From Thioalkalivibrio nitratireducens DSM 14787 (GTDB lineage: Bacteria; Pseudomonadota; Gammaproteobacteria; Ectothiorhodospirales; Ectothiorhodospiraceae): a stretch of 64,000 nucleotides of DNA. The stretch's first letter is position 1, and every line of letters begins with the position of its first letter. Where the stretch lies: contig NC_019902.2 of the NCBI RefSeq assembly GCF_000321415.2, forward strand, positions 2,976,001-3,040,000, given 5' to 3'. The position numbers and the translations under genes were made by a program. Shown piece after piece: positions 49,951 through 64,000 of the stretch. The notes beneath the pieces were generated by a model. The model was not told where the DNA came from. It ran no database searches and saw only the letters and a list, made by a program, of their open reading frames with translations.

Positions 49951-50302
49951 CGGATCCTGCTAGCGTCTGGGCTACCGAACAGCGCCCGGAGGGCCGCGAA
50001 ACGGCAGGGAACCCCCACCACGGGGCCGGGTTCTGTCGTTCGTCCCGGGGCGCAACCGGCGGGATCAAGCGGCAGAGGGTCGGGTACTGGCCGTACCGCG
50101 ATGCCCGGCTCGCGCCCCGGCGCCCAAGGAGCCCGAATCCTGACGCGATCCGGGGCCCGAATCCCGCGGCCTGCGTTGTGCGTGGGCCGTCTATGCCCGG
50201 GATGATGCGCGCGGAAACGTCACCACGGCGGGGGAGAAGAACGGGCAACCAGCAGGTGGAGCAGCGTTGTTGCGCCTCTCGCAGCATCTGTGCCGCCGGC
50301 AT
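49951..50302. other. gap upstream of dnaE2; no gene recognised
   Basis: Frames in this stretch on both strands have no recognisable domain. imuA and imuB, the usual partners of dnaE2, are not here. Confidence 0.5.
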
Positions 50303-50354
50303 GGCAGGGTCGCGTATATACTGTTTATATGAACAGTATATACGCGACCCTGCC
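50303..50354. promoter_or_regulatory. LexA-type SOS box within a 23-bp perfect inverted repeat
   Basis: TACTGTTTATATGAACAGTA (50319-50338) fits the LexA consensus TACTGT-(AT-rich)-ACAGTA. The dyad extends to 23-bp perfect arms (50303-50325 and 50332-50354) with a 6-nt centre, TATATG, that contains the start codon of dnaE2. LexA bound here would cover the gene's start. Confidence 0.85.
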
Positions 50355-53300
50355 CGACTCCCTGCCCGGCTATGCCGAGCTGACCTGCTGCAGCAACTTC
50401 AGCTTCCTGCGCGGTGCGTCGCATCCGGAGGAGCTGGTACGGCAGGCGGCAGCGCTGGGATACCGCGCCCTGGCGCTCACCGACGAGTGCTCGCTGGCCG
50501 GAGTCGTGCGTGCGCACCAGGCGGCGGTGGAGACCGGCCTGCACCTGATCGTGGGAACCGATCTGCGGCTGTTGGAGGGCCCGCGGCTGACGCTGCTGGC
50601 GCGATCGCTGGCCGGGTACAGGACGCTGTGCCGGGTGATCACCCACGCGCGCCGTGCAGAGCGCAAGGGACAGTACCGGATCGGGGCAGAGGATCTGCTG
50701 CGATCCGAGTGGGCCGGACTGCCGGGTTGCGAAGTCCTGTGGCGTATTGAAGCGGGTACCGGAAGAACGTGCAGACCGCCGGAAGCTTCATCCCGCGCCT
50801 CCGGGGTTGCGGACCGGGGAGATCTCCCTGGACACGCCCTTTCCCCCATCCCGCGGCCCCCCGCAAGCGGTGGAGGGAGTCGCTGCGGGATGGATGAAGG
50901 CGATGCAGCGAACCCAGGGCCGGGGCCCGATCCTGGATCGCCACGCTGCGCTCGCGATGACAGAGAGCAATACCGGCGCGTACTCGATGACGGGGGGCCC
51001 GCCCCGCGCGCGTCCCGTGGCACGAACGCTGACCAAGTGCAGCTGGCGATCCCTGATGATCCATTGTCGGACACGGCAGCGGCTCTCTTGCGCAACGATC
51101 GCGATTGGATCGGGTGGCTCTGCCGGGTAGTGCCGGCGGAACGGCTGCACCTGGCGATCACGCTGGTGCGTAGCCCCGACGACGCAGCGCTACGGCAACA
51201 CGCAGCGCGGCTCGGCACGGCCACCGGGATCCCGGTGCTCGCCTGCGGAGACGTGCTGATGCACCTGCGCGGACGCCGCGCGCTGCAGGATGTGCTGACC
51301 GCGCTGCGCCTGAAACTGCCGGTGGCGGAGGCCGCGCCGGCGCTGTTCCCGAACGGCGAGCGCTGCCTGCGCCCCCGTGACGAACTGGCCCGGATCTACC
51401 CCGCCGCCTGGCTCGCCGAAACCCTGCGCGTTGCGGACCGCTGCCGGTTCCGCATGGACCAAGTGCGGTACGAATATCCGACCGATACGATCCCGACCGG
51501 CGCGCGGCCCGGACCCTGGCTGCGCCGGCTGGTCGAACAGGGCTGCCGGGAACGCTGGCCCGAAGGCACGCCGGAGAACGTTCACGCGCAGATCGAGCAT
51601 GAACTCGCGGTAATCGCCGATCTGGCCTACGAGCCCTATTTCCTGACGGTGCACGACATCGTCCGCTACGCCCGCGGACGCGGCATCCTGTGCCAGGGTC
51701 GCGGCTCAGCCGCGAACTCGGCGGTCTGCTACGCGCTCGGCATCACCGCGGTGGATCCAGCGCGTTCCAGCATGCTGTTCGAGCGCTTTATCTCGCGCGA
51801 GCGCAACGAACCGCCGGACATCGATGTCGATTTCGAGCACGAGCGGCGCGAGGAGGTGATCCAGTACATCTACCACCGCTACGGGCGTGAGCGCGCGGCG
51901 CTGACCGCGACGGTGATCCGCTACCGCCGCCGCAGCGCAATGCGCGACGTCGGCCGAGCATTGGGTATCAGCCGCGCGCGCATCGACGCACTGACCGCAA
52001 ACCTGGCCTGGTGGGACGCGGGCATTCCGCGCGAGCGCTTGCAGGAAGTCGGGCTGGATCCGGACGGGCCACTCGCCCGACAGTGGCAGGTGCTGGCACA
52101 GACGCTGACCGGTTTTCCCCGACACCTGTCACAGCACACCGGCGGCTTCGTGATCGCCGCCGGTCGCCTGGACGACCTGGTGCCGATCGAGAACGCCGCG
52201 ATGGTCGAGCGCACCGTGATCCAGTGGGACAAGGACGACCTCGATGCATTGGGCCTGCTGAAGATCGACATCCTTGCGCTGGGCATGCTCTCCTGCCTGC
52301 GCCGCTGCCTGAAGCTGCTGGCGCGGCACCGTGGTTGCCACTGGGGTCTGGCCGACGTGCCGGCCGAGGATCCCGCGGTCTACGCGATGCTGCAGCGTGC
52401 GGACACCGTCGGCGTGTTCCAGATCGAGTCGCGCGCGCAGATGAGCATGCTGCCACGCCTGAAGCCCGAAACCTTCTACGACCTGGTGATCGAGATCGCG
52501 ATCGTCCGGCCCGGGCCGATCCAGGGCCAGATGGTGCACCCCTACCTGCGTCGGCGGCAGAAACGCGAACCGGTGACCTACCCGGGCCCGGAAGTGCAGC
52601 GCGTGCTGGAGCGCACGCTGGGGGTGCCGATCTTCCAGGAGCAGGCCATCGAGCTGGCGATGGTCGCGGCCGGCTTCAGCGCCGGCGAGGCCGACGGTCT
52701 GCGCCGCGCGATCGGCGCATGGCGCCGCACCGGCAACCTCGCGAAATACCGGGAGCGACTGGTCGACGGCATGCGCCGGCGCGGCTACCCGGAGTCGTTC
52801 GCGGAGCAGATCTACCGGCAGATCCTCGGCTTCGGGGAATACGGTTTTCCCGAATCGCATTCGGCGAGCTTTGCACTGATCAGTTACGTGTCGGCCTGGT
52901 TCAAGTGCCGGGAGCCGGCGATCTTCGCCTACGCCCTGCTGAACAGTCAGCCGATGGGCTTCTACGCCCCGGCGCAGATCGTCGCCGACGCACGCCGGCA
53001 CGGGGTCGAGGTAAGGCCGGTGGACGTGACCGCGAGTGCGGAGGGCTGCAGCGTCGAGATCGCCTCTGGGGAAATGCCGGACCGAGGGCCTTGTCATTGC
53101 GAACACAGCGCAGCAATCCAGAAGGGGGAAGGGACCTCAATCCTTCATGGATCGCCGTGTCGCTCCGCTCCTCACGATGACGGATTGAATCAGCGTTTCC
53201 CGTGCAGTACCGGCAGCAGCGCCGGGGCTGGTGCCGGGAACGGCGGCGACCGCCGGGATCGTGACGACCTGGCGCTGCGCCTGGGGCTGTCGATGGTGCA

Positions 53301-53979
53301 CGGGCTTCGCGCCGGCAGTGCGAAGCGGATCGTGGCAGCACGTGGCGTACGGCCATTCCGGGATGTCGCCGACCTGGTCGCCCGCGCGCGTCTGAATCGC
53401 GGCCAGGCCACGCGACTGGCGCAGGCTGGTGCCCTCGCCCGGCTGGCCGGCAACCGGCACCGCGCACGCTGGGTTGCCCAGGCGGTCGAGGCGTCATTAC
53501 CACTGTTCCCCGAAGCCGGCGTCCCGGGACGCGCCGCGGTTCCGATACTGCCTGCACCGACAGTCGCGGAGGATCTGCTGCAGGACTATGCCGGAACCGG
53601 GCTGACGCTGGGGCCGCACCCGTTGGCGCTGCTGCGCGGGCATCCCGGGCTGGCTGGCATTCCCACCGCGGATACGCTGATTGCCGGGGGCCCGCGCACC
53701 CGCGCACGCTACACGGGCCTCGTGATCACCCGGCAGCGGCCGGGTTCGGCGAAAGGCACCGTGTTCCTGACCCTGGAGGACGAGACGGGCACGGTGAACG
53801 TGATCGTCTGGTCAGCGCTGGTGGAACGGGCACGCGCAGCGGTGATCCATGCGCGATTGCTGGAGGTGACCGGTGTTCTCCAACAGGAGGACGGCGTGAC
53901 GCATCTGGTCGCGAAGCGGCTGCGGGACCGCAGCGCCTGGCTGGGCGCGTTGGCCGTGCATTCGCGGGACTTCGGATGA
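50329..53979 (+). CDS. dnaE2: error-prone DNA polymerase DnaE2 (ImuC), with in-frame repeat insertions
   Basis: The 1216-aa protein has a PHP domain (NFSFLRGASHPEELVRQAAA), the C-family polymerase core (GILCQGRGSAANSAVCYALG, NEPPDIDVDFEHERREEVIQ with the catalytic Asps, YGFPESHSASFALISYVSAW) and an OB fold (ARYTGLVITRQRPGSAKGTV). It copies damaged DNA in SOS mutagenesis, normally with ImuA/ImuB, which are absent nearby. Two stretches break the family pattern: about residues 145-245 and 910-965, both low-complexity and repeat-derived. Start at 50329 lies in the LexA dyad; the frame upstream to 50290 is non-conserved. Confidence 0.9.
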   Translation: MNSIYATLPDSLPGYAELTCCSNFSFLRGASHPEELVRQAAALGYRALALTDECSLAGVVRAHQAAVETGLHLIVGTDLRLLEGPRLTLLARSLAGYRTLCRVITHARRAERKGQYRIGAEDLLRSEWAGLPGCEVLWRIEAGTGRTCRPPEASSRASGVADRGDLPGHALSPIPRPPASGGGSRCGMDEGDAANPGPGPDPGSPRCARDDREQYRRVLDDGGPAPRASRGTNADQVQLAIPDDPLSDTAAALLRNDRDWIGWLCRVVPAERLHLAITLVRSPDDAALRQHAARLGTATGIPVLACGDVLMHLRGRRALQDVLTALRLKLPVAEAAPALFPNGERCLRPRDELARIYPAAWLAETLRVADRCRFRMDQVRYEYPTDTIPTGARPGPWLRRLVEQGCRERWPEGTPENVHAQIEHELAVIADLAYEPYFLTVHDIVRYARGRGILCQGRGSAANSAVCYALGITAVDPARSSMLFERFISRERNEPPDIDVDFEHERREEVIQYIYHRYGRERAALTATVIRYRRRSAMRDVGRALGISRARIDALTANLAWWDAGIPRERLQEVGLDPDGPLARQWQVLAQTLTGFPRHLSQHTGGFVIAAGRLDDLVPIENAAMVERTVIQWDKDDLDALGLLKIDILALGMLSCLRRCLKLLARHRGCHWGLADVPAEDPAVYAMLQRADTVGVFQIESRAQMSMLPRLKPETFYDLVIEIAIVRPGPIQGQMVHPYLRRRQKREPVTYPGPEVQRVLERTLGVPIFQEQAIELAMVAAGFSAGEADGLRRAIGAWRRTGNLAKYRERLVDGMRRRGYPESFAEQIYRQILGFGEYGFPESHSASFALISYVSAWFKCREPAIFAYALLNSQPMGFYAPAQIVADARRHGVEVRPVDVTASAEGCSVEIASGEMPDRGPCHCEHSAAIQKGEGTSILHGSPCRSAPHDDGLNQRFPCSTGSSAGAGAGNGGDRRDRDDLALRLGLSMVHGLRAGSAKRIVAARGVRPFRDVADLVARARLNRGQATRLAQAGALARLAGNRHRARWVAQAVEASLPLFPEAGVPGRAAVPILPAPTVAEDLLQDYAGTGLTLGPHPLALLRGHPGLAGIPTADTLIAGGPRTRARYTGLVITRQRPGSAKGTVFLTLEDETGTVNVIVWSALVERARAAVIHARLLEVTGVLQQEDGVTHLVAKRLRDRSAWLGALAVHSRDFG
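50755..51060. repeat. inserted repeat-like segment inside dnaE2 (first)
   Basis: About 300 bp coding for RTCRPPEASSRASGVADRGD and further Gly/Pro/Arg-rich sequence, without DnaE2 similarity. It includes GGATCGCCACGCTGCGCTCG-CGATGAC (about 50935-50961), one arm of the repeat found complete at 53093. Confidence 0.6.
53093..53181. repeat. palindromic repeat element inserted in frame in dnaE2 (second)
   Basis: GTCATTGCGAACACAGCGCA-GCAATCC (53093-53119) is an imperfect inverted match to GGATCGCCGTGTCGCTCCGC-TCCTCACGATGAC (53149-53181). The frame stays open (HCEHSAAIQKGEG...PCRSAPHDDG). One-arm copies lie near 50935 and at 20783-20805. Confidence 0.75.
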
Positions 53980-54163: not shown

Positions 54164-54634
54164 TCAGATGAACAGGCAGATATCGGCTTCGCCAGCGAAC
54201 TCGAAGAACGCGGCGGCCCCGGCATACTCGACGCCGTCGATGAACTCGCCGGTGTCCATCTCGAACAGATCCACGGTCATCTGGCAGGCGATCATGCGGA
54301 CTTCCGCCTCCATGCACAGCTCACGCAGATCCTCCAGGCTTGCAACACCCTTGGCCTTCATCTTCTGCTTCATCATCACGGTCATCATGCGCTGCATGCC
54401 CGGAAGTGTCTGCAGCAGAACCGGCACGGGCATCGGCATCGGCATGCCGGGATTACCGAGCGAGCTGACCTGCAGGTCCATCTTCTTCTTCAGGAGCTGC
54501 AGCCCGTAGAACGTGAAGAACACTTCAACCTCGTACCCGAGCGCTGCCGCGGTGGACGCCAGGATGAACGGGGGATACCCCCAGTCCAGGCTGCCCTTGG
54601 TCGCGATAATGGCCAGTTTCTTGCTGTCACTCAT
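54164..54634 (-). CDS. DsrE2-like sulfur-carrier protein
   Basis: The 156-aa product reads KKLAIIATKGSLDWGYPPFI, LGYEVEVFFTFYGLQLLKKK, GMQRMMTVMMKQKMKAKGVA, LCMEAEVRMIACQMTVDLFE and GEFIDGVEYAGAAAFFEFAG. This is the DsrE2 subgroup, whose conserved cysteine (here in MIACQM) takes part in persulfide transfer with TusA and rhodanese in sulfur oxidisers. A Met/Pro-rich loop (NPGMPMPMPVPVLL) is marked. I start at 54634 with GGGGA upstream. It is the last gene of the sulfur-globule cluster; tusA is not adjacent. Confidence 0.85.
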   Translation of the reverse strand: MSDSKKLAIIATKGSLDWGYPPFILASTAAALGYEVEVFFTFYGLQLLKKKMDLQVSSLGNPGMPMPMPVPVLLQTLPGMQRMMTVMMKQKMKAKGVASLEDLRELCMEAEVRMIACQMTVDLFEMDTGEFIDGVEYAGAAAFFEFAGEADICLFI

Positions 54635-54852
54635 GTCGAATATCCCCAAACTTGGTCGATGTACGGCGTGGCGCCCGGAACGAGAACCGCCACGGAACTC
54701 CCGAAGAAACCAGCCGGCCCGCCACGGCCCCGGGCTGGACCGGACCCGCCCGGCCCTGCTCTCGTCGCGCCACCGGCAAAGCCGAGGCGGGCCGCCTACC
54801 TGACGTGCTCAAACGCGGGCCCGGCATCTGCGACAACGGGGGCATTCCCTGC

Positions 54853-55014
54853 TCAGACGCCCTTGCCGTACGGCGTCTCCAGTTCACGATCGCGCCGCCA
54901 GTCGCGGACCATCGCACAACCTGCACAAACTCCAAGGGCCGCGAGGCTGGCCCATACTGAAACGGGAACCAGAACCATCGCCAGAACAAACATGATCCAT
55001 GCCAGAATTGTCAT
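54853..55014 (-). CDS. small membrane protein, 53 aa
   Basis: From the ATG at 55014, with GGAG seven bases upstream, the frame encodes one or two hydrophobic stretches (ILAWIMFVLAMVLVPVSVWA, SLAALGVCAGCAMV with a CAGC cysteine pair) and a charged end RDWRRDRELETPYGKGV. No family is recognised. It lies 98 bp downstream of the dynamin-like gene on the same strand. A longer frame to 55113 lacks a ribosome site. Confidence 0.55.
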   Translation of the reverse strand: MTILAWIMFVLAMVLVPVSVWASLAALGVCAGCAMVRDWRRDRELETPYGKGV

Positions 55015-55112
55015 CGTATCGCTCCTGTCCCCATTGCGCGGGCATTCTATAACCCTACATTCTGATCGCTTTTCATGCCCGCAGTCAATAGCCGCAAGGG
55101 CGAACGACGCCA

Positions 55113-56648
55113 TTATCCCGCCGCGTCCGTGCGCGCCGCATGGCCACCGACGCTCGATTCCGTGTTCCTGCGCTGCCCGGATGGTGCTGACGCATCTGCC
55201 GACTCTGCCGTGGACGCCGGATGCCCTTCATCCATGAACTGGTCGTTGAGGCGCTGCACGTAGGTCTCGGCCTGTTCGCGCAGCGCGTGCAGCTGCCGGA
55301 TCGCACCCCGCCCCAGTCCTGCAGGCGCCCTGAGGAAGATCGAGCGCCAGAAGGCAGTATTGCGGAAAAAGGCCGCGCGCCAGTTCCCAGACGCCGTTTC
55401 GTTGGGCAGGGTCCGCGCGACGCGCCGGGCGACCCAGCCACGATTGAAGAAATGGATGCCGAGGAGCAGGCCTGCGAGCAGCACCACCACCAAGGACGAA
55501 ATCACCGGGTGTTCCCGCATCCCCTGGGTCAGCGTGCCATCGAACCACGGGGCGAAACCACCGGTCAGCGACTGGCCGACCCAAACACCCGCCACCAGCA
55601 CCACACCCATCATCAGCGCATTCGCCTGCACGACGCGCCGGCGCCAGCGCCCCAGTGCCCGTGTCAGCGCCGGCAGGGCGTCCATCTCGATCGACTCGGC
55701 GATGGCCTGCATGGCCCCGACGATGCGGTAGGAACGCGAGGAACTGATCTCCGCGATCTTGTGGTGAATCTCCTCCCGGTCGCGGGCAGACTTGTACTCG
55801 TAACGCGCACGCACTTTCTCGTCGCCGATCTCGACCGCCGCGCTCGGGTTGTACAGGCAGTAGAAGCGACCGGTGGCGGTTCCCTGGCGCACCACGGCCC
55901 GCTGCCAGGCCGACACGACTTCCTCGAGGTTGTCCTCGCGCCAGGTCGTGTCGATCTGGTTCAGGATGAACACCAGCTTGGTGAAGTCATTGCGTGCCGC
56001 GACACGATTGACGAGGTGTTCGAGCGTGTCGCGCATCGCACCGGGTTCCGGATGCCGGGCGTCGAAGAACACCAGCACCAGATCCGACAGATCGATGATG
56101 TGGTCGGTCAGCTGCAGGATCGTCGCACGCTGTTCGTCGGCATCGAATCCCGGCGAGTCGATCAGAATGCGCCCCCGCAGGCGCTCGGATCGGACCGTTT
56201 TCATCGCCAGGAAATGGTCGACGGTGCGACCGCCGCCGTCACTGAGCCGTTCGATCTCGTCGCTGACCCGGTAGAACGGAAAGCGCGGATCGCCATCCAG
56301 CGCCAGCCCGGGAAGCTCCTGGACCTTGTCGCTGGTGCCGTAGCTGATCACGGTGAAACGGTCGTCGACCGCCTGGCTCCCGCTGCGCTGCACCGTGGTT
56401 CCGATATACTCGTTGACGAACGTCGACTTGCCGGCCGAGAAGGTGCCAAGCACCGCGATCATCGGCCACCAGGAAATGGTGAAGGCGTAAGACTCTTCCT
56501 CCGGGTCAAGTAGGCCCGCAGCGTATCCGACCCTGTCCAGCGCCTGAAACGGGGTCACAACGCCTTCCAGAGCCGGGTTCTCCTCCGACAGGCGCTTGCT
56601 GAGACGACTCAGTTGCTGGCTCACTCGGTTGCCGGGACGGTTGAACAT
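55113..56648 (-). CDS. dynamin-like GTPase with two membrane helices
   Basis: The 511-aa protein has GTPase motifs G1 GTFSAGKST (68-76), G3 DSPG (163-166) and G4 NQID (229-232), with the dynamin-type GFDADEQRATILQLTDHIID. It then has a helical stalk, two membrane segments (ANALMMGVVLVAGVWVGQSL; VISSLVVVLLAGLLLGIHFF, about 380-440) and a helical, charged tail. Bacterial dynamin-like proteins bend or fuse membranes. The start at 56648 has GGAG six bases upstream. It sits in the sulfur-globule cluster, 44 bp after the Met-heptad gene. Confidence 0.85.
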   Translation of the reverse strand: MFNRPGNRVSQQLSRLSKRLSEENPALEGVVTPFQALDRVGYAAGLLDPEEESYAFTISWWPMIAVLGTFSAGKSTFVNEYIGTTVQRSGSQAVDDRFTVISYGTSDKVQELPGLALDGDPRFPFYRVSDEIERLSDGGGRTVDHFLAMKTVRSERLRGRILIDSPGFDADEQRATILQLTDHIIDLSDLVLVFFDARHPEPGAMRDTLEHLVNRVAARNDFTKLVFILNQIDTTWREDNLEEVVSAWQRAVVRQGTATGRFYCLYNPSAAVEIGDEKVRARYEYKSARDREEIHHKIAEISSSRSYRIVGAMQAIAESIEMDALPALTRALGRWRRRVVQANALMMGVVLVAGVWVGQSLTGGFAPWFDGTLTQGMREHPVISSLVVVLLAGLLLGIHFFNRGWVARRVARTLPNETASGNWRAAFFRNTAFWRSIFLRAPAGLGRGAIRQLHALREQAETYVQRLNDQFMDEGHPASTAESADASAPSGQRRNTESSVGGHAARTDAAG

Positions 56649-56692
56649 GCAAACTCCGTGTCGTTGGTTGGAGAACCGCCCTGGCGGCAGCC

Positions 56693-57235
56693 TCAGTGTT
56701 GGGGAAAGAACGGGGCCGGCGAGCCCGGGAACGGGCCGGGATTGCCACTGAACGGGTTGAACGAATTCATCATGCCGAGCGGGCCCGACACGTTGCGGTT
56801 CAGACTCCACATGTCGCGCTGCATGTTCAGGGTCGACCCCGCCATGGTCTTCGTGTCCGAAGACATCGAACGGATATTGACGTTCATCGTGCCGATGTCC
56901 CGGGTCATCGAGGCGATGTTGCGGTTCATCGCGAGCATGTTTTCGTTCATGGAGACCATGTTCTCGTTGATGTACACCATGCGTTCGTCGATGTCGCCCA
57001 TCTTCGCCGCCATCACGGTCATTTCCCGCTCAATGGTCCGGGTCATCGCCGACATCTCGATCGCGAGACGGCTGACGTCCCGGGTCAGGCTTGTGATCAG
57101 CCAGAACCCGTACACCGCGAGCACCACGAACGCGACCAGCGAAGAATAGACGATCAACTGCAGTCGTCGGGAGCGTACGTCGTACTCGTCCGGATCCACG
57201 TGCCGGGCGTCGTTACGATAGTCGAATTCACTCAT
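56693..57235 (-). CDS. membrane-anchored Met-rich heptad-repeat protein
   Basis: The 180-aa protein has an acidic N-terminus (SEFDYRNDARHVDPDEYDVR), one membrane helix (LIVYSSLVAFVVLAVYGFWL) and about 75 residues of heptads with Met and Asn in fixed places: INENMVSMNENMLAMNRNIA, SMTRDIGTMNVNIRSMSSD. It ends Pro/Gly/Phe-rich (GNPGPFPGSPAPFFPQH). By charge the N-terminus is cytoplasmic and the coiled coil periplasmic. No known family. It is coupled in order with DUF302 and dynamin-like genes. Confidence 0.75.
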   Translation of the reverse strand: MSEFDYRNDARHVDPDEYDVRSRRLQLIVYSSLVAFVVLAVYGFWLITSLTRDVSRLAIEMSAMTRTIEREMTVMAAKMGDIDERMVYINENMVSMNENMLAMNRNIASMTRDIGTMNVNIRSMSSDTKTMAGSTLNMQRDMWSLNRNVSGPLGMMNSFNPFSGNPGPFPGSPAPFFPQH

Positions 57236-57289
57236 TACGTCAGTTCCAGCCAAAATGGAATGGGGGCTCAGCCATGCCGCCGGCCGGGT

Positions 57290-57877
57290 TCAAGCCTGAC
57301 CAGCCGCAGCGCGGTCCACGATCTCCCGCAGCGTCGACTGCAAACCCAGCGCGCGCTCCTGCAGCGCGATCGGCAAGGGTCTGCCACCATGAATCACCAG
57401 ATCCAGATTCGGCGTCATCAGCCAGAGGCCCCCGCGTTCATCCTCGTGCAAGATGATTCTGCAGGGAAGAAACGCCGCCATCGCCGTGGTATGGCGGATC
57501 AGGTCCGCAGCCAGCTGGGGGTCGCAGAACAGGTAAATCTTCAGAAACGGAAACTCCACGCCGGCCTGGTTTCGCACCTGCCGATCGACCGACAGCGCCC
57601 CCAGCGTATGGAGGTCCGCCGCCTCTGCGACCCGCCCAAGCGCGATCTCGACGTCCGCCACGGCGAGTCCGTCGGCGACCCGACGCTGGTAAACGAGCGC
57701 AGCCGTGGGATCACCCGTGGCCAGAATCGTTCGTGCAGCCCCGGAATAAACGGCGAGCGCAGCCTCATCGAGGCTGTGCGCCTTGTACACGTAGGGTTCG
57801 AGGACCAGGATCAGCCCCCCGATCGCCAGCAACGCCAGCAGCCCCACCAGGGCCAGGAGATTCCGCAACAACCGCAT
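57290..57877 (-). CDS. DUF302-domain membrane-anchored protein
   Basis: The 195-aa protein has an N-terminal anchor (LLALVGLLALLAIGGLILVL) and a DUF302 fold near the C-terminus (IRHTTAMAAFLPCRIILHED, ERGGLWLMTPNLDLVIHGG). DUF302 proteins are common in sulfur- and heme-rich bacteria, function unknown; a cysteine (FLPC) is kept. The middle region predicts helices. Confidence 0.8.
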   Translation of the reverse strand: MRLLRNLLALVGLLALLAIGGLILVLEPYVYKAHSLDEAALAVYSGAARTILATGDPTAALVYQRRVADGLAVADVEIALGRVAEAADLHTLGALSVDRQVRNQAGVEFPFLKIYLFCDPQLAADLIRHTTAMAAFLPCRIILHEDERGGLWLMTPNLDLVIHGGRPLPIALQERALGLQSTLREIVDRAAAGQA

Positions 57878-57980
57878 CCAGGATCCTCGTCATCGTCGGC
57901 GGCGACCGCCTAGTGCCGGGTTCCGGCCCCGGACAGACCTGCCCCGCTTGGCGGCATCTAAGTAAGCATATTCTAATATT

Positions 57981-59252
57981 CTACCTGAATTGTTCCAGGT
58001 GCGCGCGCCCGGACGGATGGTAACGGTCATAGATCGGAGCGAGGCGGCGCAGCATCGGAACCCGCGCGTCGTCAGGAAGCGCGCGCAGCGCGTCGTCGTA
58101 GGCGGCGAGTGCACGGCGGGTGTCTCCCGACGCAAAATGGAAATTACCCAACTCGCCGTAGAGGTCGGCACGCTCGGGGGCATCGCGCGCGATGTCATCG
58201 ATCCCCGCCGCCAGAACCTGCGCTGCGGCGCGCGGGCCGCGACTGCGATAGGCCGACCGCGCCTCCGCCAGCAGTTCCGCAGGCGGCGCCACTGCGGCAG
58301 CATCCGTGTCGACGACCGCCTCGGGTTCTGCCCGCACTTCCGGCTCCGGCGCCTCGGCGACGGCCGTGGGTTCTTCCGGTACCGCCGGATCCACAGCCTC
58401 GGAGACGATCTCGGGCGCTTCCGGCACCGCCGGATCCACAGCCTCGGCGGCGGTCTCGGACGCTTCCGGCAACGCCGGGTCCACAGCCTCGGCGACGCTC
58501 TCGGGCGCTTCCGGCACCGCCGGATCCACAGCGTCGGCGGCGGTCTCGGACGCTTCCGGCAACGCCGGGTCCACAGCCTCGGCGACGCTCTCGGGCGCTT
58601 CCGGCACCGCCGGATCCACAGCCTCGGCGACGGTTTCGGGCGCTTCCGGCAACGCCGGGTCCACAGCCTCGGCGACGCTCTCGGGCGCTTCCGGCAACGC
58701 CGGATCCACAGCGTCGGCGGCGGTCTCGGACGCTTCCGGCAACGCCGGGTCCACAGCCTCGGCGACGCTCTCGGGCGCTTCCGGCACCGCCGGATCCACA
58801 GCCTCGGCGACGGTTTCGGGCGCTTCCGGCAACGCCGGGTCCACAGCCTCGGCGACGCTCTCGGGCGCTTCCGGCAACGCCGGATCCACAGCGTCGGCGG
58901 CGGTCTCGGACGCTTCCGGCAACGCCGGGTCCACAGCCTCGGCGACGCTCTCGGGCGCTTCCGGCACCGCCGGATCCACAGCCTCGGCGACGGTCTTGGG
59001 CTCGTCGCGCGCCTCCGGCTCCGCCGCCTCGGCAACGGCGTCGAGCTCATCCGGCACTGTCGCCCTCGGCGCCGTGGCCTCGTCCCGCACCGCCGGCGCC
59101 GCCGCCTCGGCCATGCCTGGAGTCACCTCTGCCGGGTCTGGATCCGACGCGGTGCCACCGGCCAGCCAGTCACGGTTGGCCCAGGCAATCACCCAGAGCA
59201 GAATGACGAGCAGGATCCAGTACTTCCGCAAGAAAGTGCGTACCGCAGACAT
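57981..59252 (-). CDS. membrane protein with fourteen 15-residue repeats and TPR-like end
   Basis: The 423-aa protein opens with one membrane helix (KYWILLVILLWVIAWANRDW), then an acidic region, then fourteen units of the type DPALPEAPESVAEAV (residues 93-302), and a helical TPR-like end (RSAYRSRGPRAAAQVLAAGI; LYGELGNFHFASGDTRRALA; AAYDDALRALPDDARV). The repeats are very acidic, with alternating Pro and Ala, and probably extended. The start has GGTGA upstream. The gene follows parA by 39 bp, so it is a candidate partner of that ATPase. No family is recognised for the whole. Confidence 0.8.
   Translation of the reverse strand: MSAVRTFLRKYWILLVILLWVIAWANRDWLAGGTASDPDPAEVTPGMAEAAAPAVRDEATAPRATVPDELDAVAEAAEPEARDEPKTVAEAVDPAVPEAPESVAEAVDPALPEASETAADAVDPALPEAPESVAEAVDPALPEAPETVAEAVDPAVPEAPESVAEAVDPALPEASETAADAVDPALPEAPESVAEAVDPALPEAPETVAEAVDPAVPEAPESVAEAVDPALPEASETAADAVDPAVPEAPESVAEAVDPALPEASETAAEAVDPAVPEAPEIVSEAVDPAVPEEPTAVAEAPEPEVRAEPEAVVDTDAAAVAPPAELLAEARSAYRSRGPRAAAQVLAAGIDDIARDAPERADLYGELGNFHFASGDTRRALAAYDDALRALPDDARVPMLRRLAPIYDRYHPSGRAHLEQFR
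58347..58976. repeat. 45-bp tandem repeat array (14 units)
   Basis: Each unit is 45 bp with a higher-order period of four units (180 bp), where unit types ESVAEAV, SETAADAV, ESVAEAV, ETVAEAV follow in order. Near-identity of the 180-bp blocks points to recent expansion by unequal exchange or slippage. It is all in frame within the membrane protein gene. Confidence 0.9.
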
Positions 59253-59291
59253 GAGTCACCTACATCGGTTGTGCATGGGAAACCCCCGGTA

Positions 59292-59927
59292 TCACCGGCG
59301 GGACTTTCGGAAGAGCGCCCTGGCCAACTCATCCAGCTCGTGCGCCGCCTTGCCCCGGCGCTCCAGCTCGTGCACCGACAGCCCCTCGCTGAACGAGCGG
59401 CGAAAGGCCATACGCTGGCGCAGACGCGGACGTACCGCCCTCAGGCCGTCGATCATACCCAGAGCACCAAAGGCCTCGTCCGACTCGCGCACGGCCTGGT
59501 GGGTATCGGCACGGTTGATGAACCCGACGATCTCGGGCTTCTCCCGGTCGCCGCGCAGTTCCAGGATCTTGCGCACAAAACGCTGCGTGGACCAGACATC
59601 CGCCTGGCTCGGCGGCACCGGAATCACGACCTGGTCGGCCGCGAGGATCGCCGCATACATGGTGCCGAGGTCGGAGGGGCCGACATCGACGATGATCTCT
59701 TGATACTTGTCGCTCGCGTGCAGGGCTTCTTCAAGGCTCTGCGACAGCTCCAGCGACGGCGAATAACCTTCTTCTTCACGCACACGAATCACATCGGTCA
59801 GCGTCGCCTGCGGATCGAGGTCGACAGCCAAGACCGTACGCTTGTTGCTCAGCACCCACAGTGCCAGGTTGAACGCGACCGTACTCTTGCCGGTTCCACC
59901 CTTGAGGTTGCCAATCACTGTCAGCAT
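59292..59927 (-). CDS. ParA/MinD-type partition ATPase
   Basis: The 211-aa protein has the deviant Walker A LKGGTGKST (signature K9 and K14), VLAVDLDPQATLTDVI and IIVDVGPSDLGTMYAAILAA (Walker B region). No DNA-binding N-terminal extension or MinD amphipathic tail is seen. Orphan ParA proteins of this size position protein cargo such as carboxysomes, chemoreceptor clusters or storage granules on the nucleoid. It lies directly after the sulfur globule protein gene and its terminator. Confidence 0.9.
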   Translation of the reverse strand: MLTVIGNLKGGTGKSTVAFNLALWVLSNKRTVLAVDLDPQATLTDVIRVREEEGYSPSLELSQSLEEALHASDKYQEIIVDVGPSDLGTMYAAILAADQVVIPVPPSQADVWSTQRFVRKILELRGDREKPEIVGFINRADTHQAVRESDEAFGALGMIDGLRAVRPRLRQRMAFRRSFSEGLSVHELERRGKAAHELDELARALFRKSRR

Positions 59928-59950
59928 GCACGGCCTCGATGCGACAAAGG

Positions 59951-59983
59951 AAAAAGAGCCTGCCCGGTGGAAACCGGGCAGGC
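59951..59983 (-). terminator. intrinsic terminator after the sulfur globule gene
   Basis: Minus strand: GCCTGCCCGGT, loop TTCC, ACCGGGCAGGC, then TCTTTTTCC. It lies 17 bp past the sulfur globule stop and 24 bp before the parA start, so parA is expressed by read-through or from an unseen promoter. Confidence 0.85.
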
Positions 59984-59999
59984 TGCACTTACGGCGAAC

Positions 60000-60359
60000 T
60001 TACCAGCGCGGGCCACCGTATCCGGGGCCGTAGCCGTGACCCGGCCCGTACCCGTAGGGATGGCCATAGCCGTAGGCATCACCGTAGCCGCGGCCGTAAC
60101 CGTGACCGCGGCCGGTACCGCGAGCCGAGAAGTCGAAGTCGCTGAACATGTCGCCCAAACCAAACATGTCGCCCAGACCGCGACCATACCCCGGCCCATA
60201 ACCGTAACCGGGGCCGCCGTATCCGTACCCCGGTCCGCCCCAGCCGCCAGGACCACCCCAGCCACCGGGACCACCCCACTGCGCCGAAGCCATCATCGGG
60301 GCGGCGGAAAGGGCACCAAGGGACGCAGCCAGAACGACTGCCTTAACGAGCTTACTCAT
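60000..60359 (-). CDS. sulfur globule protein (CV1/CV2-like)
   Basis: The 119-aa precursor has a signal peptide ([22 protein letters not shown], cut before QWGG) and a mature chain of Gly, Tyr, Pro and Trp repeats: [37 protein letters not shown], and the end [16 protein letters not shown]. Composition and layout match the structural envelope proteins of periplasmic sulfur globules in purple sulfur bacteria. GGAGG lies six bases before the ATG. It has its own strong terminator, as expected for an abundant protein. Confidence 0.85.
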
Positions 60360-60454
60360 GAAAACCTCCAATGGGAGTTCGGCCCTCGTTTGAACTGCAT
60401 GCCGGCCAAGAGGGCCATCAACCAGCACGCATTATTGTCCTTGAACCGCCGCAC

Positions 60455-60979
60455 TCAGTAATGGAGCCCGAATAACGGAACGGTTCCAAGCGGAGACCCG
60501 TAGAGCGGCGACAACAGGCCGGGTGTTCCCAGCCCGGTTCCAGGATAAAGCATACTACTTCCCGGATAGCTTCCATACGGAAACAGGCTCGGATACCCCA
60601 GCGACCAGGGCGACAGCAGCCCGTAGCTATCCGCAGGCCCGGGGTAGAGCGTACCCGCAACACCGGGCGCCTGGAGCCCATAGGAAATCCCGGGAGCGTG
60701 CCGCAACCCTTCCTCATACCGCGTACCGGGCTGGATCAGCGCACGTGGATCATCCCGGGGCCGGCGACGATCATGGGTCGGGTCATAATCCCGCGGGGCA
60801 AACCGCCCGTCGTTATAAGGCTGGTACGCCGGTGCCGGCGGCCGGTCTTCCGGGACAGCCCAGGGATTCCGATCGCGGGCCGGGACGTCCCCACCCAGCA
60901 ACAGGCAGAGCGCAATGCAGGGCCCGAAAGCCCAGCGTGGCGCCAGGCGCGCCGTGCGATCCCCTGCCCTATCGTTCAT
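60455..60979 (-). CDS. secreted Pro/Tyr/Gly/Leu-rich protein, possible globule component
   Basis: The 174-aa protein has a signal-like segment (WAFGPCIALCLLLGGDVPAR) and a chain rich in Pro, Gly, Tyr and Leu (ISYGLQAPGVAGTLYPGPAD; YGLLSPWSLGYPSLFPYGSY; LGTPGLLSPLYGSPLGTVPL). AGGAG precedes the start. No family is recognised; place and composition suggest an envelope or accessory part of the sulfur globule. Confidence 0.65.
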   Translation of the reverse strand: MNDRAGDRTARLAPRWAFGPCIALCLLLGGDVPARDRNPWAVPEDRPPAPAYQPYNDGRFAPRDYDPTHDRRRPRDDPRALIQPGTRYEEGLRHAPGISYGLQAPGVAGTLYPGPADSYGLLSPWSLGYPSLFPYGSYPGSSMLYPGTGLGTPGLLSPLYGSPLGTVPLFGLHY

Positions 60980-61049
60980 CGCGCACGATCTCCTGTTTCG
61001 CTGCGGGCAACCGCGTGGTTCCGGTCACCCGCAGCAGGAAGCGCTCCGT

Positions 61050-61661
61050 TTACTCGGCGGCCGGGGCTTCGTACCCACCGCGGTCCGCCCGGCGCTCTTC
61101 CATTTCCTTGCGACGCTCTTCCATCATCTTCATGATCTCTTCGCGCTGCTTCTCCATCTCTTCCATATAGGCCGCGCGCCCGGCTTCCATCGCCTTCATG
61201 CGGGCCTCATGCATGGCTTCCATTTTCTCCATGTACTCCTTGCGCTCGGCTTCCATTTTCTCCATGTGCGCCTTGCGCTCGGCTTCGATTTCCTTCATGC
61301 GCTCTTCGCGCTCGGCCATCAGCGCCTTCATCTCCTCGGACATCTCCGGCATCTCGGCGGGGTAGCCCTCGCGGACCCAGGGCGGCGGTTCGAACGCCGG
61401 CCTTTCACGATCCATGAAGTCCGGGCGCGGCGGCATTCCATAGCCATGCCGGGGACCAAAGCCCTGACGCGGGCCATAGCTGTGACGCGGGCCGTAGCCC
61501 ATCGGAGCCTGGCCATAGGCCGGAACGCCGTAACCGTAGCCGGCAGCGGTCCTTTCCTGCCCTTCCTCGGCCTGAGCGCCACCCGCCAGTGCGAATGCCG
61601 TGGCCACGGCCAGCGCGGTCAGAGAAAACTTGCCAAAACGCTTGCTCACATCATGCTTCAT
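61050..61661 (-). CDS. secreted Met/Glu-rich coiled-coil protein with YGPR repeats
   Basis: The 203-aa precursor has a signal peptide (LTALAVATAFALAGGAQA-EE), a Gly/Tyr/Pro/Arg block (YGYGVPAYGQAPMGYGPRHS, YGPRQGFGPRHGYG) like sulfur globule proteins, then a long Met/Glu/Lys/Arg helix (MKEIEAERKAHMEKMEAERK; EYMEKMEAMHEARMKAMEAG). AGGAG is eight bases before the start. It is a likely larger globule-associated protein, with the helix perhaps as a scaffold. No exact family recognised. Confidence 0.7.
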   Translation of the reverse strand: MKHDVSKRFGKFSLTALAVATAFALAGGAQAEEGQERTAAGYGYGVPAYGQAPMGYGPRHSYGPRQGFGPRHGYGMPPRPDFMDRERPAFEPPPWVREGYPAEMPEMSEEMKALMAEREERMKEIEAERKAHMEKMEAERKEYMEKMEAMHEARMKAMEAGRAAYMEEMEKQREEIMKMMEERRKEMEERRADRGGYEAPAAE

Positions 61662-61697
61662 AAGGTCGATCTCCTTGAGTTGAGAGTCATGGGTAAA

Positions 61698-64000
61698 TCA
61701 TTTCAAGCGAATGCCGCGGCGGCGCCGGGCACTGCTTGCTGCGGAACCCGACGACGCTGCCTTGGCGCCTTCATCATCGTCGGACTCTGCCTCGGGGGCT
61801 CCGGTAGCACTGCCAGCCTTGCGGGGCGGGGCCCCGCGATCGGCCGGCGCCGATGCCTCGCCCGGGTCCGCCTTGGTCTTGGCTGCTGCCGAAGCCGGTT
61901 TAGAAGTGCGCGCGGACGCCGGCTTCGGTTCGGCGGAGGCACTACCCCTCTGCTGCTTCTCGCCCGCGCCCGGTGCGGCGGTGCCCGACGGAGTCTTCTC
62001 GGCGGCGCTCTCGCCCCCGGCACGCCCCCCGCTGGCACTGCGCACCCGGTCGGACCCCGGCTGCGTGCGGGAGCGATCGTCCGCCGCTTCGGCACGATCA
62101 CCGGATCCGTCGCGCTCGCCACTTTCAGCCTGACCCGTCTCCACACCCGATGGGGCGCCCCCCGCAGGGCCGCCACTGCCATCCGGCGGGGCCGCGGGGC
62201 CGGTGGGACCGCCGCCGCCCGAAGGCGGACGGTCATCGCCGCCCACCAGGCGCAGGATCCAGCGCGCGAGAGCGCGCATCAACTGCACCACGCCTTCGAC
62301 AAAACTGGCCGCGAGCGAGCGCAGGTAGAGACCGGCCAGCCCGATGAACTTCATCACGGGTCCGCCTGACGGATCGGTCATCTTCGTACTGGACGGGAAC
62401 CGCGGGCCTTCGTGACCCGGATCACCGCCTGGCTCTGGTTGCACGGCACATGCGGCACCGCCGCCGGAGCCCCCGCCGGTCGCATTCTCCTCGAGGGTTC
62501 GGCTGGCACTGATGCAGCCCAGGGGGATGACCAGCAGTGTCAGCAGCGTGGCGACGATCGTGCCGAACATCAGCGAAATCGCCATACCCTGGAAGATCGG
62601 GTCGAACAGGATCACGCTCGAGCCCGCGAGCAGCGCGAACGCGGTGATCAGAATCGGGCGGGTGCGCGCCTGGCAGGCGTGGATCATCGCGTCCATCACC
62701 GACTGCCCCTCCGCCACCGCATGGCGCGCGAAGTCCACCAGCAGGATCGAGTTGCGGACGATGATACCCGCAAGTGCGATGAAGCCGATCATCGACGTCG
62801 CGGTGAACTCCGCCCCGAGCAACCAGTGTCCGGGAATGATGCCGATCAGCGTCAGCGGGATCGGCGCCATCACGATCGCCGGCAGCAGGAAGTTTCCGAA
62901 CTCCCAGACGACCAGCATGTAGATCAGCACCAGCGCGATCGCGAACGCGATGCCCATGTCGCGGAAGGTCTCGTAGGTGACCGTCCACTCGCCCGCCCAT
63001 TCGAAGCCGACGGTGCCGTCGTTCGGAGGCGGCCCGACCCAGTGAGGATCGAGCTCACCCCCCCGTGGCAGCCGGTATTCCTTCAACTGCTCCTGGACCT
63101 CGAGCATGCCGTAGATCGGTGCCGCCAGACGGCCCACCGTCTCGGCGGTCACGTATTCGACCGGACGAAGGTTCTTGTGGAAGATCGGTTCATCCTGCGG
63201 CTGGCGTACAAACTCCCCCAGCTCCGACAGAGGCACCGAGCCACCGGCCATGGTCGGCACCGGGAGCAACAGCAGCCGCTGCAGATCCGAGCGCACGGCC
63301 ATCGGCAGGCGAATCTGGATCAGATGCGGCTCGACCAGCGACCGCGCCTTCACGTCCCCGACGATCTGGCCACCGATCGCGCTCTCCAACGTGCGGTTGA
63401 CCGCGTCGACCGTCACGCCCCGGCGCAGCGCCTTGTCACGTTCGACGATAAAGTGCCAGACGTCGTACTGCGCCTGCAGGAAGCTGTCGACGTCGTCGAG
63501 GTGCGGTGCGTTGTCGAACATGCGTTCGAGGTCGCGCGCAACCCTTCGGCGAATCTCGGGCTCCGGCCCATAGACCTCCGCCACTACCGACTGCAGCACC
63601 GGCGGGCCAGGCGGCATCTCGACGACCTGGATCCGCGCGCCGGCAGCGTCGGCCATCGGGGCGAGGAGCTCACGCGCCTCGACCGCGATCTGGTGGCTGG
63701 TCCGCTTGCGGTCGCCCTTGTCGACGAGCTGGACCTGGACATCGGCCTGCCAGGGCTCCTGACGCAGGTAGTAATGTCGCACCAGGCCGTTGAAGTTGAA
63801 CGGCGACGCGGTGCCGACATACGCCTGTACGGCGGTCACCTCGGGCAAATCGCGGAGCACCATCGCGAGTTCATGGGTGAGTGTCGCCGTTTGCGGAAGC
63901 GCAGTGCCTTCGGGGAAGTTGATCACCACGTTGAACTCGGGCTTGTTGTCCAGCGGCAGCATCTTCACCGACACATCCTTGGTGAAGAACAGCATCACGG
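61698..64000 (-). CDS. RND transporter permease with long low-complexity C-terminal tail (5' end outside window)
   Basis: At least 766 residues are in the window. The transporter part includes PEFNVVINFPEGTALPQTAT (periplasmic loop), FRDMGIAFAIALVLIYMLVV, MIGFIALAGIIVRNSILLVD and ACQARTRPILITAFALLAGS, as in CusA/AcrB-like pumps. After LLTLLVIPLGCISASR comes a second hydrophobic or amphipathic part (FIGLAGLYLRSLAASFVEGV) and about 180 disordered residues rich in Ser, Ala, Gly, Pro, Lys and Arg, ending SARRRRGIRLK. Such a tail is unusual for RND pumps. The gene ends 36 bp before the Met/Glu-rich protein gene. Confidence 0.82.
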   Translation of the reverse strand, partial: VMLFFTKDVSVKMLPLDNKPEFNVVINFPEGTALPQTATLTHELAMVLRDLPEVTAVQAYVGTASPFNFNGLVRHYYLRQEPWQADVQVQLVDKGDRKRTSHQIAVEARELLAPMADAAGARIQVVEMPPGPPVLQSVVAEVYGPEPEIRRRVARDLERMFDNAPHLDDVDSFLQAQYDVWHFIVERDKALRRGVTVDAVNRTLESAIGGQIVGDVKARSLVEPHLIQIRLPMAVRSDLQRLLLLPVPTMAGGSVPLSELGEFVRQPQDEPIFHKNLRPVEYVTAETVGRLAAPIYGMLEVQEQLKEYRLPRGGELDPHWVGPPPNDGTVGFEWAGEWTVTYETFRDMGIAFAIALVLIYMLVVWEFGNFLLPAIVMAPIPLTLIGIIPGHWLLGAEFTATSMIGFIALAGIIVRNSILLVDFARHAVAEGQSVMDAMIHACQARTRPILITAFALLAGSSVILFDPIFQGMAISLMFGTIVATLLTLLVIPLGCISASRTLEENATGGGSGGGAACAVQPEPGGDPGHEGPRFPSSTKMTDPSGGPVMKFIGLAGLYLRSLAASFVEGVVQLMRALARWILRLVGGDDRPPSGGGGPTGPAAPPDGSGGPAGGAPSGVETGQAESGERDGSGDRAEAADDRSRTQPGSDRVRSASGGRAGGESAAEKTPSGTAAPGAGEKQQRGSASAEPKPASARTSKPASAAAKTKADPGEASAPADRGAPPRKAGSATGAPEAESDDDEGAKAASSGSAASSARRRRGIRLK

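Follow-up and report, generated by a model that had tools for sequence, protein, structure and literature searches.

A ParA-type ATPase gene associated with sulfur globule protein genes in Gammaproteobacteria and a second class, and its possible role in globule positioning

The gene block and its ParA ATPase

The sequence analyzed here, referred to as the window, is a 64,000-nucleotide stretch of Thioalkalivibrio nitratireducens DSM 14787 (contig NC_019902.2), corresponding to bases 2976001-3040000 of a closed chromosome of 4,002,350 bases, and it contains a block of genes in which a ParA-type ATPase is encoded beside a sulfur globule protein (SGP). The eleven-gene, single-strand block described in the initial annotation is recovered in full, with every named gene present and all of them on the - strand (Table 1): behind an HlyD-type adaptor gene come those for an RND permease, three secreted low-complexity proteins, ParA and a repeat-bearing TPR protein, followed by the DUF302, Met-heptad, dynamin-like, 53-amino-acid (53-aa) and DsrE2 genes. 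Intergenic gaps are 36-103 bases, with the exception of 218 bases before dsrE2, and several of the open reading frames (ORFs) use a start codon downstream of the first possible one. The claim that one of the three secreted proteins is an SGP is borne out by a PF17228 score above the cut-off; translated from its over-long first start, the same gene scores 25.8 bits. The host genome, whose closest named relatives in a genome-wide dynamin scan are Thioalkalivibrio, encodes four Pfam sulfur globule proteins, and its chromosome carries two dsrA genes over the cut-off (G000:C1:775290-776495 and 1775437-1776630), each with a dsrB-like match beside it.

Table 1. Features of the block, in order of transcription; positions follow window numbering.
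Feature	Position	Strand	Basis
HlyD-type adaptor	65817-67094 (beyond window end)	-	adjoins RND gene
RND permease (AcrB type), low-complexity C-terminal tail	61698-65723 (window holds 61698..64000, 5' part outside)	-	PF00873 508.9 bits
Secreted low-complexity protein	61050..61661	-	signal-like N-terminus, G/Y/P-rich part, Met/Glu/Arg coiled-coil-like C-terminus
Secreted P/G/Y/L-rich low-complexity protein	60455..60979	-	sequence composition
Sulfur globule protein, 119 aa, GYG-rich, signal-like hydrophobic N-terminus	60000..60359	-	PF17228 27.1 bits, cut-off 26.7
Terminator-like hairpin, 12-bp stem then CTTTTTCC (T-run)	59957..59984	-	between sgp and parA
ParA-type ATPase, 211 aa, deviant Walker A KGGTGKST	59292..59927	-	AAA_31 59.5 bits
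Single-helix membrane protein, Ala/Glu/Pro-rich repeats, C-terminal TPR	57981..59252	-	TPR orthologue by Pfam in L126
Membrane-anchored DUF302 protein, one N-terminal helix	57290..57877	-	PF03625 53.7 bits, cut-off 23
Met-heptad single-helix membrane protein, candidate ParA-periplasm link	56693..57235	-	sequence, loci comparison
Dynamin-like GTPase, membrane-helix-like segments at residues 339-357 and 382-400; accessory	55113..56648	-	PF00350 56 bits, cut-off 27
53-aa membrane protein, Thioalkalivibrio-lineage accessory	54853..55014	-	conservation among relatives
DsrE2 sulfur carrier, Thioalkalivibrio-lineage accessory	54164..54634	-	NF047629 290.5 bits, cut-off 210

The ParA of the block carries both the signature lysine and the Walker A' Asp of the ParA/MinD motif, and in an alignment of 69 sequences including that of the window, residues K9, G10, G11, G13, K14, S15, T16, D36 and D38 are invariant; its match to NF041546 scores 128 bits, under the equivalog cut-off of 180. 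R172, R176, R177 and K193 are nearly invariant in the same alignment and may correspond to the known DNA-binding Arg of Soj. Among solved structures the closest is that of ParF, a partition ATPase (4dzz, E 1e-13, profile positions 7-204 of 210). Similarity to ParF of plasmid TP228 and to other small partition ATPases runs end to end over about 206 aa, whereas the window locus is chromosomal, has globule genes as neighbors and includes no recognized ParG-type centromere-binding partner. Across genomes this cluster-type ParA is set apart from other ParA proteins by a gap in score (at least 206 bits versus at most 113).

The arrangement recalls the Mcd system (McdA/McdB), in that the gene for a ParA-family ATPase adjoins those for the structural proteins of a storage or metabolic body and is present where the body is; it differs in that the globule cargo is extracytoplasmic and would have to be reached through a link that spans the membrane. 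Unlike the window ParA, the matched McdA structures (6non, 6noo) have no signature Lys, and Pfam and NCBIfam scans recognized neither a carboxysome gene nor McdB in the window cluster.

Co-occurrence and gene order of parA and sgp

The link between parA and sgp proposed for this locus extends beyond the host genome, in genome-wide co-occurrence and in gene order over many families of two classes. Among 185 Gammaproteobacteria genomes, mostly one per family (the class sample), 24 have both ParA and SGP, 7 have ParA only, 3 have SGP only and 151 have neither, and the association is strong (odds ratio 173, Fisher p = 8e-21). It holds among the 62 dsrA-positive genomes, comprising 60 over the cut-off and two fragments (22 both, 6 ParA only, 3 SGP only, 31 neither; p = 1.6e-8), and in a tree-based test with few contrasts: on a partly unresolved DsrA tree, used as a stand-in for the species tree and offering about 9-10 independent pairs, ParA agrees in approximately 7 and disagrees in approximately 0 of the independent pairs that differ in SGP (median p 0.016, range across pairings 0.008-0.22). 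All 31 ParA-positive class-sample genomes have dsrA or soxB, and the three without dsrA all have SoxB. Agreement is also complete (10/10) in ten named genomes, all of which were chosen for carrying dynamin and which include metagenome-assembled genomes (MAGs), where incomplete assemblies could hide genes; both proteins are present in Thioalkalivibrio ALE31 and ALJ24, T. halophilus and Thiorhodospira sibirica, and neither in the other six (ALJ21, ARh2, ALJ3, Wenzhouxiangella limi, a Wenzhouxiangella MAG and a gammaproteobacterial MAG).

The dynamin scan yielded 28 named loci, and gene content was compared over three sets of parA loci (17 named, 31 class-sample and 20 phylum-sample). Among contigs of sufficient length, the order sgp-parA-(TPR)-(DUF302)-Met-heptad-dynamin-DsrE2 recurs in about 20 named ones from Thioalkalivibrio, including those of ALE31, ALMg11, AKL19, ALJ16, ALJ24, ALE14, ALJT, ALJ7, T. 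versutus, T. halophilus and a T. paradoxus MAG. Three strains (ALJ21, T. thiocyanoxidans ARh2 and ALJ3) have lost the genes for ParA, the DUF302 protein and the Met-heptad protein together from the corresponding locus, which still encodes TPR, dynamin and DsrE2 along with two low-complexity secreted proteins. In a reduced version of the arrangement, other gammaproteobacterial families show genes for RND, secreted G/Y/W/N/P-rich proteins, ParA, TPR, DUF302 and Met-heptad proteins in matching order. In a phylum-wide sample of 299 genomes ParA occurs in 40, all of them outside the class of the window except the host genome itself, and most of the 20 loci examined in this sample read RND, secreted proteins, a DUF4412-type protein, further secreted proteins, parA and Met-heptad. 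One closed genome of the second class, with 4,719,581 bases and a local G+C of ∼55%, has an SGP (64.9 bits) directly upstream of parA; we take it to be, almost certainly, that of Magnetococcus marinus MC-1. A G+C content of 54.17% has been published for M. marinus MC-1, and intracellular sulfur globules are reported in Magnetofaba australis, a related magnetotactic coccus (PMC5088516).

Judged by these comparisons of gene content, the core of the cluster is the RND/adaptor pair, secreted globule-type proteins, ParA and the Met-heptad protein, and the TPR, DUF302, dynamin, 53-aa and DsrE2 genes are lineage-specific additions. The initial annotation had included the DUF302, TPR, 53-aa and DsrE2 genes in the set, but, like dynamin, they are clade-specific.

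The strong hairpin between sgp and parA indicates that the block is not a plain uniform operon. Hairpins of this kind precede parA in 19 of 68 other loci, with Thioalkalivibrio making up about half, and upstream of other genes of the block they number 1/62 (Met-heptad), 1/70 (dynamin), 0/32 (DUF302) and 0/15 (TPR). Because the hairpin tail begins 29 bases before the parA start, there would be little room for a usual promoter between the two. Attenuation is likely, with one transcript yielding much globule protein and little ParA.

A possible ParA connection to the periplasmic globule

The candidate for the connection is the Met-heptad protein, in which 26 Met pairs fall at spacings of 7, 14 or 21 residues versus 6.3 expected, a number reached by none of 20,000 shuffles; most members of the family have a similar excess. 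It has one membrane helix (residues 33-51), near the N-terminus, and is modeled by AlphaFold as a single helix from residue 15 to 149 followed by a disordered P/G-rich tail. Basic residues ahead of the membrane helix suggest an N-in topology, which would place the rod in the periplasm. The gene was detected at 17/17 named, 18/31 class-sample and 19/20 phylum-sample parA loci, some contigs ending too early for it to be seen, and in Thiorhodospira sibirica it forms with parA an isolated pair, 64 bases apart, the other cluster genes not being alongside. Two single-helix membrane proteins had been put forward as bridges between ParA and the globule, and of these the Met-heptad protein stands as the most constant neighbor of parA, whereas the TPR protein is clade-specific. 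The predicted cytoplasmic tail of the Met-heptad protein contains a CxxC motif (ECxNCSA) in 18 phylum-sample sequences (L143-L162) that is absent from Thioalkalivibrio. A role for this tail as a classical basic ParA activator was rejected, as its charges do not fit.

The genes for ParA and a partner membrane protein go with those for the globule coat, and therefore the granules may be placed, and shared out at cell division, by a ParA machine of the kind that moves plasmids and carboxysomes. Structural low-complexity proteins would coat the periplasmic sulfur globules, and the Met-heptad protein would cross the inner membrane, keeping a short tail in the cytoplasm and directing a long coiled-coil rod toward the globule. 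Cytoplasmic ParA, nucleoid-bound in its ATP state, would contact the tail, and this contact would space the globules, or their membrane formation sites, along the cell and share them at division, in a manner resembling the action of McdA on carboxysomes. The comparisons establish gene content, gene order, the co-occurrence of parA with sgp, the ATPase motifs and a continuous predicted helix with regularly spaced Met; the membrane topology, the contact of ParA with its partner, its binding to the nucleoid, the contact with the globule and the resulting positioning are predicted components of the scheme. The proposal that ParA works with the Met-heptad protein across the inner membrane to position or partition globules in the periplasm, or the sites where these assemble, is tentative, and we consider the case for it just short of evenly balanced; that a trans-membrane ParA system moves or partitions the periplasmic globule through the Met-heptad protein in Gammaproteobacteria and magnetotactic cocci alike may be so, although we incline somewhat against it. 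The original interpretation of the block, as a system that positions, shapes or delimits globules, is partly supported.

The literature searched, which mostly did not extend to subscription papers and preprints, yielded no earlier account linking sulfur globules to ParA, dynamin, McdA/positioning or nucleoid/partitioning, and no machinery proposed for globule placement or inheritance. The ParA itself comes from an established family, and the new element would be its association with a storage body outside the cytoplasm. If the proposal is true, it describes a system for the spatial organization of a storage body that is among the commonest in bacteria, with ParA acting on cargo across a membrane, and it makes a prediction for the magnetotactic cocci, whose cells hold globules and magnetosomes together. 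ParA, being less low-complexity than the globule proteins, could also serve as a genomic marker of globule-forming potential.

Several observations weigh against positioning by ParA. Globules in many species are described as randomly placed (PMC10386293). The basic disordered N-terminus usual in ParA partners (PMC10241942) was not found in the Met-heptad tails, most of which are acidic in the Gammaproteobacteria, those of the second class being close to neutral, and the TPR protein, which has a short basic N-terminus (MSAVRTFLRK), is absent from most second-class loci. Three SGP-positive class-sample genomes (G080, G088 and G141) are without cluster-type ParA, and 7 ParA-positive ones are without a Pfam SGP, in an analysis where the low complexity of SGPs makes presence and absence by Pfam imperfect; among these 7, G131, G151 and G057 (with a P-rich neighbor) have secreted low-complexity proteins beside parA, and in G154 the contig ends beside it. 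A PF00124 search for a Chromatiaceae-like phototroph among 32 globule/ParA genomes returned none, so that the Allochromatium vinosum lineage lies outside the sample. Finally, the terminator-like hairpin could mean that sgp and parA form separate transcription units in Thioalkalivibrio.

The nearest rival to globule positioning is placement of export or assembly sites, in which ParA and the Met-heptad protein would position the RND-adaptor pump and the sites of globule-protein export, and would set where globules start rather than move finished ones. RND and adaptor genes are frequent in the cluster (RND at 16/17 named, 18/31 class-sample and 13/20 phylum-sample parA loci), and other ParA-type ATPases place membrane machines in addition to bodies (PMC10241942), but the T. 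sibirica pair has no RND gene alongside, and SGP anywhere in a genome is a good predictor of ParA, with or without linkage of the two genes; we regard this explanation as unlikely, if far from negligible. A protein of the same fold might instead act in assembly, membrane insertion or regulation of globule or RND proteins, without positioning anything. Such a role would accord with a Met-heptad tail lacking the usual basic ParA-activating signature and with the second-class CxxC, which could be redox- or metal-sensitive, but full-length similarity to ParF and other partition ATPases, and the tendency of the neighbors of ParA-family members to reveal their cargo (PMC10241942), make it improbable.

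The fuller system of the initial annotation, in which ParA would be joined by the dynamin-like GTPase in shaping or delimiting the membranes of globules, draws on the presence of dynamin in the block at 17/17 named and 13/31 class-sample loci and on its association with SGP (p = 4e-16 in the 185 genomes). The named loci were fetched with a dynamin query, however, so that its presence there is by construction, and it occurs at only 2 of the 20 phylum-sample clusters, being absent from the other 18. A dynamin with a strong score is found in 41 of the 185 genomes, 12 of them without dsrA and 6 of these also without SoxB over the cut-off; Wenzhouxiangella has it but neither ParA nor SGP, and the three Thioalkalivibrio strains that have lost parA and SGP retain it. 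This wider spread and retention count against dynamin on the refutation test proposed in the initial annotation and leave a shaping role unsupported: dynamin was rejected as a core part on its distribution, and the system as first drawn is very unlikely. Comparative distribution indicates that it is a broader gammaproteobacterial protein present at the locus in some lineages. Highly improbable, and the least probable of the explanations considered, is that the parA-sgp association is a by-product of shared ancestry and a sulfur-oxidizing lifestyle. All ParA-positive class-sample genomes are sulfur oxidizers by gene content, related genomes tend to share both genes, and some pairings of the few independent pairs are not significant. 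The association within dsrA-positive genomes and the 7:0 split of independent pairs nevertheless argue against it, as do the three Thioalkalivibrio strains without both genes among congeners with both, and the conservation of gene order across classes.

Accessory genes and further observations

SgpA-D of A. vinosum, like the sulfur globule protein of the window, are G/Y/N/P-rich proteins with signal peptides that belong to PF17228; they differ in that the passages of PMC10386293 consulted mention no ParA link for them. The secreted protein at 61050..61661, whose orthologues adjoin the RND gene in relatives, is similar in position and composition to A. vinosum SgpD, the gene for which also adjoins a hydrophobic/amphiphilic exporter gene (PMC10386293). 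A DUF4412-type secreted protein (PF14371, assigned by Pfam in L086) belongs regularly to the cluster in organisms other than Thioalkalivibrio (L086:4312-5094, with others in L070, L087, L126, L133, L135 and L143). In several families a conserved 131-aa protein opens the cluster upstream of the adaptor gene (for example, L126:16136-16531); its identification as an SCP-2 protein was rejected, as Pfam gave no match.

The dynamin-like GTPase resembles bacterial dynamin-like proteins (PF00350) in its GTPase domain and C-terminal pair of membrane-helix-like segments, and differs from a dedicated globule part in that its phylogenetic spread exceeds that of globules. An AlphaFold model of the GTPase built with 16 close sequences is poor (mean predicted local distance difference test score, pLDDT, of 56.7). 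Genomes G080, G088 and G141, with globule protein, Met-heptad and dynamin genes but no cluster-type ParA, provide natural tests of the contribution of ParA.

Weaker matches to the Met-heptad profile occur elsewhere on the host chromosome (G000:C1:2107082-2107471, 1529847-1530224, 548321-548659, 93739-94086 and 3701936-3702187), of which the first (7.5e-22) looks like a true paralogue. A second DsrE2 copy (G000:C1:381187-381630), with ∼74% DNA identity to that of the window, lies near repeated transposase-like ORFs. Outside the block, a large DNA-polymerase-like ORF (50290-53979) has a 52-base near-perfect inverted repeat at its start (window 50303-50354) and also contains Arg/Gly-rich in-frame stretches.

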